DNA of 64,000 nucleotides from Halorussus gelatinilyticus (lineage in GTDB: Archaea; Halobacteriota; Halobacteria; Halobacteriales; Haladaptataceae), in the NCBI RefSeq assembly GCF_023238445.1, contig NZ_CP096658.1:2418001-2482000 (forward strand), read 5' to 3'. The stretch's first letter is position 1. Every line of letters starts with the position of its first letter. A model generated the notes under the pieces. That model worked only from the letters and a program-made list of their open reading frames with translations. It searched no databases and was not told where the DNA came from. Below, piece after piece: positions 35,479-40,658 of this stretch. The position numbers were made by a program, and so were the translations under genes.

Positions 35479-35805
35479 TTAGGCCATCTGTTCTATCTGT
35501 TCCAGTTCGACTTCGATGTGGACGCCATCGGGGAAGTCGAACTCCGTGACCTGCCGGGCCAGTTTGTTGTGGCCCACGATCTCCATCTCGCGGGTGTACA
35601 CCGTGTAGTCCCACGACCGGAACTGGCGATGCTCCTCGCCGGCGGCCGTCTTGTACTGCGGGACGGTGAGTCGTTTCGGCGGGGCAGAGTGCGGCCCGCG
35701 GAGTTCCGCGCCCTTTCGTTCCGCCGTCGAGCGAATCTCGTCTACGATTCGGTCCAGAGCGGGACGATTGCCGCTCTGAAGCCGTATTTTGGTTACGAAG
35801 GTCAT
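35479..35805 (-). CDS. uS10-family protein (ribosomal S10 paralogue)
   Basis: A 108-residue protein with the S10/mL48 fold: FVTKIRLQSGNRPALDRIVDEI, KRLTVPQY and RSWDYTVYTREMEIVGHNKLA. It is not the classical rps10 of the EF-1-alpha operon; haloarchaea carry this second, shorter-looped version. ATG at 35805 is chosen because TTTTACGTA at about 35846-35854 would start transcription just upstream; the ATG at 35838 is too close to that box. It may bind the ribosome or act in RNA metabolism. Confidence 0.78.
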   Translation of the reverse strand: MTFVTKIRLQSGNRPALDRIVDEIRSTAERKGAELRGPHSAPPKRLTVPQYKTAAGEEHRQFRSWDYTVYTREMEIVGHNKLARQVTEFDFPDGVHIEVELEQIEQMA

Positions 35806-36137
35806 GGCTGGGGGTTCGGTGTCGATGTTGTTCAGCATCGAGGTACGTAAAACGTCTGTTCTTCGCGCGGGCCGTGCGACGCCGCGGCGAGACGCAGACC
35901 GCGCGACCGGTCGGTGAGCCGACCGGTCGGCGAGACGCAAACCGCGCGATACCGCGGCGAGCGCCCGAACCTTGACTGTTCAACCTCCGTTTCCCCGACG
36001 TTATCTGACGAATCAGGGCCTCTACGGCCGATTCTGGTGACTCGCCGCCTCCGGCGCTCGAATTACTCGGCAGCCGCATCGCTCTGACGGGTATTCTCCG
36101 ACATTCTCTTAACCGACGGCCGTTTATACTCCGGTAA
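35806..36137. other. 332-bp intergenic region with short direct repeats
   Basis: No gene seen. 35885-35906 and 35928-35949 are 22-bp direct repeats with one mismatch (GGCGAGACGC-ACCGCGCGA), and between them GACCGGTCGG is itself duplicated, giving a compact array of repeats and palindromes of about 80 bp. The last 40 bases hold the Nudix-gene promoter (CTTAAC near 36108, TTTATA near 36123). Confidence 0.75.
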
Positions 36138-36575
36138 ATGACGGTTGAAGCTACGAGCGCGGGTGCGATCCTCTACCGGGATACCCGCGGTCGCCGGGAA
36201 TACCTCCTCCTCAAGTCCCGTCCGGGCGACTGGGAGTTCCCCAAGGGCGGGGTGGAGGGGGACGAAGAGCTACAGCAAACGGCTATCCGCGAAGTGAAAG
36301 AAGAGGCCGGAATCAAGGACTTCCGCCTCTTGGACGGCTTCCGCGACGACTACGACTACGTCTTCGAGGCCAACGGCAACACCATCCACAAGACGGTCCA
36401 CCTGTTCGTCGCCAAGTCCTACGAGGCGAGCGCGGAACTCTCGCACGAACACCGCGACCACCAGTGGCGCGACTACGACCAGGCCATCAACACCATCACG
36501 CAGGACGGCCCGCGCGAAATCCTCGAAGACGCCCACGAGTTCCTCAACGAGAAAGAGGAGAACGGCGACGTGTAG
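36138..36575 (+). CDS. Nudix hydrolase (Ap4A hydrolase type)
   Basis: A 145-residue Nudix protein with the complete box GGVEGDEELQQTAIREVKEEAGI and an upstream GAILYRDTRGRREYLLLK strand. The layout matches bis(5'-nucleosyl)-tetraphosphatases, which split diadenosine polyphosphates. All box glutamates are present, so it should be active. ATG at 36138. Confidence 0.9.
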   Translation: MTVEATSAGAILYRDTRGRREYLLLKSRPGDWEFPKGGVEGDEELQQTAIREVKEEAGIKDFRLLDGFRDDYDYVFEANGNTIHKTVHLFVAKSYEASAELSHEHRDHQWRDYDQAINTITQDGPREILEDAHEFLNEKEENGDV

Positions 36576-36688: not shown

Positions 36689-37843
36689 GTGAGCGACGCG
36701 GACGCAGACGACCGGAGCGCCGACGACGCGACCGGCGAGGACGGCCCGGACCCCGAGTTCGTCTTCGAGTTGCGAACTTGCCGGTGGGCCGAACGCGAGT
36801 GGCCGCCCGGCGCGGGCGACGACGCGGACGACGCCGAGAGCGACCGCTCCGACTCCCGACCCGCCATCGTCGCGCGGCAACTCGGCACCAAGCGCAGACG
36901 CTGGGACACGCTCGTCGTGGAGGTGGACCCAGAGGGGTTCCGCCGACGGGCGAACTTCGGCCGGAAGCGCCTCGACTCGGACCTGCTCGACGTGATACCC
37001 CACGCCCCGGCCGACTGGGAGTATTACCGCGACGCGCTCCCGGACCCCGGCTACCCGTGGCGCTACGTCCGCGAGACTATCCACCGCGCGGACGACCGCG
37101 GGATTCTCGACGTTCGCAAGCGGAACAACCGCATCCAGATTCGACGGAAGTGGGCCTACCCCGACTGGGTGGAGCGCATCGTCGCCGTCGAGAACAAGCC
37201 CGACTTGGACGCCAGCGCGGCCCGCGACCTCGCCGCCCAACTGGAGTACGACGTGGCGCTCGCGCTGGCCGACGAGGTGTGGGTCGCCACGCGCGCGACC
37301 GGCGAGCGCGTCGAACCCGCGCTGCTGGAGAGCGTGCCCGTCGAGGCGGGCATCCTGACCATCGACGGCGGAGCGGGAAGCGCCTCGGGGACGCGAGCGG
37401 GAGGGAACGACCCGCGAGCAAGCGTCGAGTGGTTCCCCCGGACCCTCGACGTGGACGCGCCGGGGACCCTGATTCGGGAGCGCGGCGAGGTGACCGAGTA
37501 CGGGAGTTCCGCCTCGCAGTTCGACTACGCCGACCCCGAATGGAAGGCCCAAAAGCGCCTCGAAATCGCAGAGCGAGCCTACGAGAAGGGCTGGCGTGCC
37601 TTCGCAGAGACGATGCGCCCCGACTGTCGGCACTTCCAGTTGCGCAGGGAAGGCCGAACGCTCCTGCCGTACTGTCCGGCGAAGGCGTGCCACCAGACCA
37701 GTTCGGAGTGTTCGGGGTCCTATCCGGAGTTCTCGCCGGAACCGCCCCAGTGGCGGACGAAGAACTGGCCCATCGAGGGCGGGCCGGGCAAGGGAATCCG
37801 GAGACTGCTCGAAAAGCGGCGAGAGCGAAATCGGCCGGGGTAG
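36689..37843 (+). CDS. DUF5787 family protein; candidate Fe-S PD-(D/E)XK nuclease
   Basis: A 384-residue haloarchaeal protein. One Cys lies near the N-terminus (Cys31, ELRTCRWAEREWP) and four near the C-terminus (Cys313, 329, 334, 341; YCPAKACHQTSSECSG). The centre has RRWDTLVVEVDPEGF (Asp73/80) and IVAVENKPDLDAS with Glu168-x-Lys170, followed by a QLEYDVALALADEVWVAT helix-strand, which is how the core of PD-(D/E)XK nucleases reads. An N-terminal Cys plus a C-terminal three-Cys cluster is the arrangement in Cas4/AddB-type iron-sulfur nucleases. Nuclease function is my inference; the DUF5787 name is from memory. GTG start at 36689. Confidence 0.75.
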   Translation: MSDADADDRSADDATGEDGPDPEFVFELRTCRWAEREWPPGAGDDADDAESDRSDSRPAIVARQLGTKRRRWDTLVVEVDPEGFRRRANFGRKRLDSDLLDVIPHAPADWEYYRDALPDPGYPWRYVRETIHRADDRGILDVRKRNNRIQIRRKWAYPDWVERIVAVENKPDLDASAARDLAAQLEYDVALALADEVWVATRATGERVEPALLESVPVEAGILTIDGGAGSASGTRAGGNDPRASVEWFPRTLDVDAPGTLIRERGEVTEYGSSASQFDYADPEWKAQKRLEIAERAYEKGWRAFAETMRPDCRHFQLRREGRTLLPYCPAKACHQTSSECSGSYPEFSPEPPQWRTKNWPIEGGPGKGIRRLLEKRRERNRPG

Positions 37844-37884: not shown

Positions 37885-38385
37885 TCAGTCGGAGACCGAC
37901 ACCTCGACCTCGTCGCGCTCGACGGTCAGCTTGAACGTCGGTACGGTCCGGTAGACCACTTCCACGACGCCTTTGCGCCGCAGTGCCTGCAACGCGCTCC
38001 GGACCTCCTCGGCCTCGGGGTCCACGTCGAACTCCGCGCGCACCTTCTGGAGGACCGACACCACGCTCTCCGAGTCGTCGTCCGGCCCGGCGACGACCGA
38101 GAAGACCTGCTGTTGGAGTCGGGGGACCCGAATCGCGGAGGGCACGCCCTCGCCCTCGTCGTCCACCACGCCGGGTTCCACGTCCACGAGGTCGTTTCCC
38201 TCCTCGGTCGCGCGAATCAGGCTGTTGTCGTCGCGGTAGTAGTAGTCCTTGAGTTCGTTTTCGAGGTACTGGTGGACCTCGCTCCCGCTTTCGAGACCCC
38301 ATCGCTCCTGTAGTTCCGCGTTCTTGGTCGGCTGTAGCTCCACGAGGTCGGCGAGTCGCTCGCGGGCCTCCTCCGAGAGAGTCAT
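37885..38385 (-). CDS. DUF5797 family protein
   Basis: A 166-residue haloarchaeal protein: MTLSEEARERLADLVELQPTKNAELQERWGLESGSEVHQYLENELKDYYYRDDNSLIRAT, then VEVVYRTVPTFKLTVERDEVEV. The N-terminal part resembles a winged helix. The protein is conserved next to various genes; function unknown. Converges with the DUF5787 gene, 41 bases apart. Confidence 0.8.
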   Translation of the reverse strand: MTLSEEARERLADLVELQPTKNAELQERWGLESGSEVHQYLENELKDYYYRDDNSLIRATEEGNDLVDVEPGVVDDEGEGVPSAIRVPRLQQQVFSVVAGPDDDSESVVSVLQKVRAEFDVDPEAEEVRSALQALRRKGVVEVVYRTVPTFKLTVERDEVEVSVSD

Positions 38386-39761: not shown

Positions 39762-40658
39762 ATGTCCGACACTCCGGGAACTCTCTCGTGGTCGGTCGGT
39801 CCGGCCGACTCGCGGGCGATTCGAGTCCTGTTCTACCTCGCCGAGGGACTGCTCGGCGGTGCGGTCGTCTCGATACTGTTCTCGGTGGCCGCGGAGACGC
39901 TTCCGGCGGCGCTCGCCGGCGACCCGTGGGCGCCGGGACTCATCGCCGTGTTCGCCCTCCTCGTCGCCGGTCGCGTGGTCTGGGGCTACGCTGTCGTACG
40001 GGCCGCGGCCGACCGGTCCCGGACCGCTCCCGGCGCCACGCTACTGACGTGGACTCGCGACCAGCAGTGGCGGTGGCCGCTACTGGTTACGCTCGTCGTC
40101 GGAACGGCGTTGGTCGCGCTCGGTTCCGGCGCGACCGGCGCGTTCTCGGAGGACTCGCGGTGGCTCGGGACGTTGCTCCTCGCCGCGGGTTGCTCGGCGC
40201 TCGGCGAGTTCCTGAGTTCCGAGGGCCAACTCGACGCCGAGAAACTGACGCTCGCGACGCCGCGGTACCGCGAGTGGCGCGAGGTGGACCTCCGGGCGCT
40301 CGCGTCGCTGCGGCGGGTCTCGGTCGGCCCGTTCGCCGTCTGCTGGCTCTCGGTCGCGCCCGGCGTCGAGGACCGGACGGCGATACAGGGGTTCTACGCG
40401 CTGCCGACCGACGTCGCCGAGCGGGGCCGGTCGGCCTTCGAGTCGGGACTCGCGGCCGACCCGCCCGTCGACGCCGAGACCGCCGAGCGCGCCCGGTTCT
40501 TCCGGCGGGTGAACCGGGCCGTCGGGGTCGGCGTCCTCCTGCTCGCGGTCGCGGCGTTTCTCGTCGTCGCGTGGTCCGGGATGCCCGTCTGGAACCTGCT
40601 CGCGTTCGCGTGGCTGATAGTCGGCGCCGGACTCTTCTTCCTCAAGTTCGCGGCGTGA
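39762..40658 (+). CDS. Haloarchaeal membrane protein with six helices and PH-like segment
   Basis: A 298-residue protein with N-terminal helices (about 21-45, 58-80, 103-125, 133-150), a soluble section (RYREWREVDLRALASLRRVSVGPFAVCWLSV) that resembles bacterial PH-like membrane proteins, and two C-terminal helices. No enzyme motif. I do not recognise a named family. Upstream TACTTTTTCC box supports the ATG at 39762. Confidence 0.7.
   Translation: MSDTPGTLSWSVGPADSRAIRVLFYLAEGLLGGAVVSILFSVAAETLPAALAGDPWAPGLIAVFALLVAGRVVWGYAVVRAAADRSRTAPGATLLTWTRDQQWRWPLLVTLVVGTALVALGSGATGAFSEDSRWLGTLLLAAGCSALGEFLSSEGQLDAEKLTLATPRYREWREVDLRALASLRRVSVGPFAVCWLSVAPGVEDRTAIQGFYALPTDVAERGRSAFESGLAADPPVDAETAERARFFRRVNRAVGVGVLLLAVAAFLVVAWSGMPVWNLLAFAWLIVGAGLFFLKFAA

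Follow-up and report, generated by a model that had tools for sequence, protein, structure and literature searches.

DUF5787, a conserved pair of haloarchaeal proteins, is probably a PD-(D/E)XK nuclease family with a C-terminal cysteine module

We analyzed a 64,000-nucleotide stretch of the Halorussus gelatinilyticus genome (contig NZ_CP096658.1, positions 2,418,001 to 2,482,000; hereafter the window) and focused on one open reading frame (ORF) at 36689-37843 on the plus strand. The encoded protein belongs to the Pfam family DUF5787 (PF19100), with an expectation value (E) of 3.2e-118 and 394.9 bits against a curated cut-off of 25, in agreement with the family name given in a first-pass annotation of this DNA. 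Conservation and profile comparisons suggest that DUF5787 is probably a haloarchaeal PD-(D/E)XK nuclease family of the Mrr/MmcB type, in which a winged-helix-like insert and a four-cysteine metal site accompany the catalytic core. Pfam and NCBI offer the DUF name alone (a relative is annotated as "DUF5787 family protein"), and "DUF5787" was not found by name in the literature, as far as could be checked; to the same extent, DUF5787 is previously undescribed as a nuclease family, as the first-pass annotation had held. Features along the protein are as follows.

36689-37843, plus strand: DUF5787 paralog A, 384 residues, GTG start and TAG stop (ORF translation, Pfam match).
36755-36799, plus strand: helix alpha-1, residues 23-37, with invariant E23, E27 (candidate active-site Glu) and E35 and near-invariant C31 (36779-36781) (conservation; helix in both low-confidence models).
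36863-36925, plus strand: strands beta-1 and beta-2, residues 59-79, with invariant R63-Q64-x-G66, R70 and candidate catalytic D73 (36905-36907) (conservation, model; the D aligned to the Mrr/MmcB Asp).
36929-37147, plus strand: insert between the catalytic Asp and ExK, residues 81-153, helices followed by a beta hairpin, weakly winged-helix-like (models, weak Foldseek and PaaX matches).
37157-37204, plus strand: Y157-P-x-W160 and strand beta-3 with E168-N-K170-P, residues 157-172, a candidate metal-binding or catalytic motif (invariant or nearly so in 164 sequences).
37211-37291, plus strand: helix alpha-2 with invariant Q184 and D188, then strand beta-4 DEVWVAT, residues 175-201 (conservation; aligned to MmcB CDRLFFAT).
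37625-37723, plus strand: C-terminal Cys domain with C313, C329, C341 and position 345, a Cys in the family and here a Tyr (TAT, 37721-37723) (conservation).

The genome carrying the window encodes a second paralog, B (G000:C1:951683-952474, minus strand), and conservation was assessed over 124 A and 40 B sequences, 164 in total. Invariant throughout this set were E23, E27, E35, R63, Q64, G66, R70, D73, R87, Y157, W160, E168, N169, K170, P171, Q184, D188, D195, E295, R296 and R303, as well as C313, C329 and C341. The conserved D...(D/E)-x-K active-site signature of the PD-(D/E)XK superfamily is thus present as D73, E168 and K170, accompanied by E27 of helix alpha-1, with D73 and E168 spaced 95 residues apart. 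That E27, D73, E168, K170 and Q184 are fixed in all sequences despite 33% identity between A and B argues for a nuclease. It also bears on the idea that DUF5787 binds DNA or RNA without being catalytically active, for instance as a regulator or repair scaffold, its PD-(D/E)XK-like core being joined to a winged helix and a zinc finger; the weak winged-helix matches of the insert, the Cys4 module and a Cys region that weakly resembles a small domain, DUF7140 (E 0.002-0.03), would suit such a protein, but candidate catalytic residues invariant in both paralogs across the order would be unusual for a dead enzyme, and we consider this idea very unlikely.

The residues quoted in the first-pass annotation, namely VAVENKPDL with E168 and K170, D73, D80, the segment QLEYDVALALADEVWVAT, C31, C313, C329, C334 and C341, are all present in the translation. 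Seven of the nine residues that it named proved to be family features, including both residues of the Glu-x-Lys motif and, among its cysteines, C313, C329 and C341 in every sequence and C31 in 161 of 164 (124/124 in A, 37/40 in B). The other two are poorly conserved: D80 is found in 113 of 124 A sequences and is mostly Gly in B, and C334 is present in 45/124 A and 2/40 B sequences. Features that it missed are Glu27 of alpha-1, R63-Q64-x-G66, R70, Y157-P-x-W160, the fourth C-terminal Cys (345) and paralog B.

When profiles were compared at default settings, DUF5787 scored at background against PDDEXK_1, Cas4, NucS, Hjc and Mrr, whereas PDDEXK_1, Cas4 and NucS recognized one another (E 3e-16 to 1e-3, with 3e-16 for the mutual match of Cas4 and PDDEXK_1) and Hjc recognized Mrr. 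Because Hjc and Mrr were also at background against Cas4 and PDDEXK_1, the result argues against membership of DUF5787 in the RecB clade (Cas4/AddB type) rather than against the fold, and the kinship to Cas4, AddB and Dna2 that had been proposed at first pass was not borne out.

The highest default score of all families tried came from MmcB (PF06319), a PD-(D/E)XK endonuclease that belongs to the SOS response (PMC9578287), here represented by sequences from plasmids: the A, B and A+B profiles scored 22-24, compared to at most 18 for other families, and each exceeded all 150 column shuffles (shuffle maxima 17.9-18.6), while the A+B core scored 21.7 with a shuffled maximum of 17.9. The default alignment spans strands 4 and 5 only, with E of about 0.005-0.02. 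The two families share an R-R-x-D strand, a [VI]E-x-K strand, an AD/CD-x-[VF]-x-[VF]-A-T strand and then a P-E-x-x-G-[VIL] strand; MmcB differs in having neither the C-terminal Cys module nor an insert that separates D from ExK. When gap costs were made lenient, the profile of B aligned in register with MmcB over D, E-x-K and strands 4 and 5, and the B and A+B profiles aligned in register with Mrr over the helix-1 FE, D, K and strand 4. Mrr_cat (PF04471) has the helix-1 FE, the strand-2 D, the strand-3 K and the conserved T of the next strand in this same order under these settings; it differs by Q-x-K in place of E-x-K, by the absence of the insert and Cys module, and by its background score at default settings. 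Over six PD-(D/E)XK profiles and two query profiles, the mean z score with lenient gaps was 2.16, compared to 0.02 for reversed templates, -0.05 for reversed queries and 0.22 for five unrelated families (Mann-Whitney p of 0.0002, 0.0002 and 0.001, respectively, from comparisons that are not independent). The unspliced full-length B profile was too noisy for use with lenient gaps. Altogether, these comparisons point to a relationship of the DUF5787 core with Mrr and MmcB that is statistical and of modest strength.

A number of results weigh against a PD-(D/E)XK nuclease of this type. MmcB was a post hoc choice, compared after its resemblance to AD-E-V-W-V-A-T...P-x-E-x-G had been noticed by eye, and the full-register alignments were obtained with a core spliced by hand, its insert removed, under lenient gap costs. 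The diversity of the profiles was low (effective number of sequences of about 2.5). One of ten unrelated comparisons, B versus DUF5797, reached a z score of 3.2; the A-only profile was unremarkable against MmcB with lenient gaps, 14 of 200 shuffles being as good; and under lenient gaps Cas4, PDDEXK_1 and NucS mostly failed to align in catalytic register. Because of these last three results, we regard the profile evidence as moderate. Pfam searches gave no match of DUF5787 to a PD-(D/E)XK family above cut-off, and hmmsearch of the A, B, A+B and spliced-core profiles against PDB sequences returned chance matches only. Finally, AlphaFold models of the window protein and of an ortholog (L013) were both poor, with predicted local distance difference test (pLDDT) scores of 47.5 and 46.1, and Foldseek found no significant match for either.

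The alignments behind both models held A orthologs only (61-84% identical to the window protein) and no paralog B. The models are uninformative except for the order of elements, which runs through a helix (25-37), two strands (59-65 and 73-79), an insert rich in helices with a hairpin at its end (140-153), a strand (161-168) and a helix (175-194). This alpha-beta-beta-insert-beta-alpha order is that of the PD-(D/E)XK fold, in models with pLDDT of 46-48 and with strand 4 unmodeled. The structural comparison that the first-pass annotation had put forward, run here with AlphaFold and Foldseek, agrees in element order and yielded neither a confident model nor a significant fold match. For the insert, Foldseek gave weak, non-significant winged-helix matches (E above 0.2), and there was a weak Pfam match to PaaX. 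As both models were poor, we infer the fold.

Further family searches were largely silent. No significant relative of DUF5787 was found in PHROGs, PADLOC or NCBIfam, and Mrr_cat was absent from the Pfam matches of every DUF5787 member. MmcB-like (PF06319) matched neither DUF5787 nor any of 393 genomes of the window's phylum, with the control genome, Caulobacter, positive. PDDEXK_7 gave one Pfam match among 77 members (E 0.07), and its genome search produced no matches anywhere, the controls being likewise silent. The lack of a confident model and of a significant fold or family match would be expected if DUF5787 had a different fold, with a PD-(D/E)XK appearance that is convergent and some other cause behind the conservation of the ENK motif and Asp73. 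Against this stand the several separate motifs that align in register with Mrr and MmcB and the scores that exceed those of reversed profiles, and we give a different fold only a small chance. The PD-(D/E)XK nuclease proposed at first pass is supported in part and at moderate strength, by the invariant E27, D73 and E168-x-K170 and the lenient-gap register with Mrr and MmcB, with no family match above cut-off; its type shifts from Cas4/AddB/Dna2 to Mrr/MmcB.

The first-pass annotation had further suggested an iron-sulfur (Fe-S) nuclease of the Cas4, AddB or Dna2 kind, in which Cys31 and three C-terminal cysteines would hold a 4Fe-4S staple. Cas4 and AddB indeed hold their cluster by one N-terminal and three C-terminal Cys residues (PMC3466216), and, like Dna2, they share with DUF5787 the order of D, E-x-K and Q together with N- and C-terminal cysteines. 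Cys31 lies in helix 1 right before the core, C313, C329 and C341 are invariant, and the window copy retains these four. The family, however, has four C-terminal cysteines: position 345 is Cys in 123/124 A and 40/40 B sequences and Tyr in the window copy alone. The spacing in A is mostly C-x(14-19)-C-x11-C-x3-C, with a first gap of x15 in 72 of 124 sequences, x16 in 35 and up to x38 in single members, and that in B is mostly C-x(12-18)-C-x(11-12)-C-x3-C; most DUF5787 proteins accordingly have C-x(12-19)-C-x(11-12)-C-x3-C, unlike the C-x2-C-x5-C of the Cas4 sequences fetched. Moreover, three B proteins (L129, L134 and L146, two of them from genus g2) carry Ala where other members have the N-terminal Cys, yet keep all four C-terminal cysteines and the candidate catalytic residues. 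With this five-Cys layout, the different spacing, a large insert separating D from ExK, and the absence of default-setting similarity to the Cas4 and PDDEXK_1 profiles, which match each other (Dna2 is not represented by a profile), an Fe-S nuclease of the Cas4 kind is unlikely.

The natural variants, Ala31 in three B proteins and Tyr345 in the window copy, each retain four of the five conserved cysteines. Because the family has the fourth C-terminal Cys, the C-terminal set is complete without Cys31, and by itself it could form a full metal site. The bound metal would be either zinc or an Fe-S cluster. The Tyr345 codon of the window, TAT, is one base from TGT, and both a real mutation and a sequencing error are possible.

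DUF5787 was searched for in 393 genomes of the window's phylum, of which 81 belong to its own order. It was found above cut-off in 80 genomes, all of the window's order and each with at least two matches, and in none of the sampled phylum genomes outside that order. The remaining genome of the order (G134; 1.9 Mb in 120 contigs) had no match above cut-off, and its one weak match (E 0.06) was set aside as chance, as was the single match outside haloarchaea (in G228), which falls in a methionyl-tRNA synthetase region. Haloferax volcanii, the control match, carries the family. A and B form two clades with support of 1.0, with identities of 66% within A and 59% within B; the paralogs are ancient and split before the haloarchaeal radiation. 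No relatives were found in the viral contigs or phage records searched. A haloarchaeal PD-(D/E)XK protein recognized earlier, HVO_A0006 of H. volcanii, is a rare Type IIG restriction fragment with D60-x14-E75-A-K77 and transposition genes on its flanks (PMC4389544); DUF5787 differs from it as a nearly universal chromosomal pair with its D and E much farther apart.

Among 80 relatives of A, three neighbors of the gene recur.

36138-36575, plus strand: NUDIX protein of the bis(5'-nucleosyl)-tetraphosphatase type (NCBI annotation), upstream on the same strand in 68/80 relatives.
37885-38385, minus strand: DUF5797, the convergent downstream neighbor, in 74/80 relatives.
35479-35940, minus strand: uS10-like ribosomal protein gene (Ribosomal_S10, E 4e-16), close to DUF5787 in 65/80 relatives.

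These conserved neighbors fit a stable chromosomal locus, with no pointer to a defense island or mobile element. One plasmid copy of DUF5787 was observed, in Natronorubrum bangense, where a megaplasmid (L331, 170532-179503) carries a second block of uS10-like, NUDIX, DUF5787 and DUF5797 genes in addition to the chromosomal block (L058, L059). Elsewhere in the window, a membrane-protein-like ORF of 298 residues (39762-40655, plus strand) had no Pfam match at E 0.01.

The ORF, the conservation, the paralog pair and its distribution are established by these data; fold, catalysis, substrate, metal and role are what we infer for the PD-(D/E)XK nuclease reading of DUF5787. The proteins would be metal-dependent phosphodiesterases whose most probable activity is that of a DNA endonuclease or processing nuclease, in which Glu27 of helix 1, Asp73 of strand 2 and Glu168-x-Lys170 of strand 3 would coordinate Mg2+ and water for phosphodiester cleavage. 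The insert that separates Asp73 from Glu168, about 70 residues of helices plus a hairpin, may, as a winged-helix-like element, aid DNA binding, and the C-terminal Cys4 (C-x15-C-x11-C-x3-C) may bind a structural metal, with Cys31 as a nearby or spare ligand. A and B, both of which keep all candidate catalytic residues, would have a housekeeping role, perhaps in the repair of DNA. A bolder form of this proposal, to which we assign a low probability, is an ancient, nearly universal haloarchaeal nuclease pair that joins an Mrr/MmcB-type core to a winged-helix insert and a possibly Fe-S-binding Cys4 site, i.e., a metal-cluster nuclease outside the RecB clade, paired in core DNA repair.

The functions of most haloarchaeal signature proteins are not known; in one survey of such proteins, a function was predicted for only 1 of 55 (PMC3287961). 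E27, D73, E168, K170 and the five cysteines are clear target residues, and H. volcanii is a genetic model that has the family. Should DUF5787 be a nuclease, there would be a testable function for two genes that essentially all haloarchaea retain, and an unrecognized pair of enzymes would be added to the DNA metabolism of these organisms.
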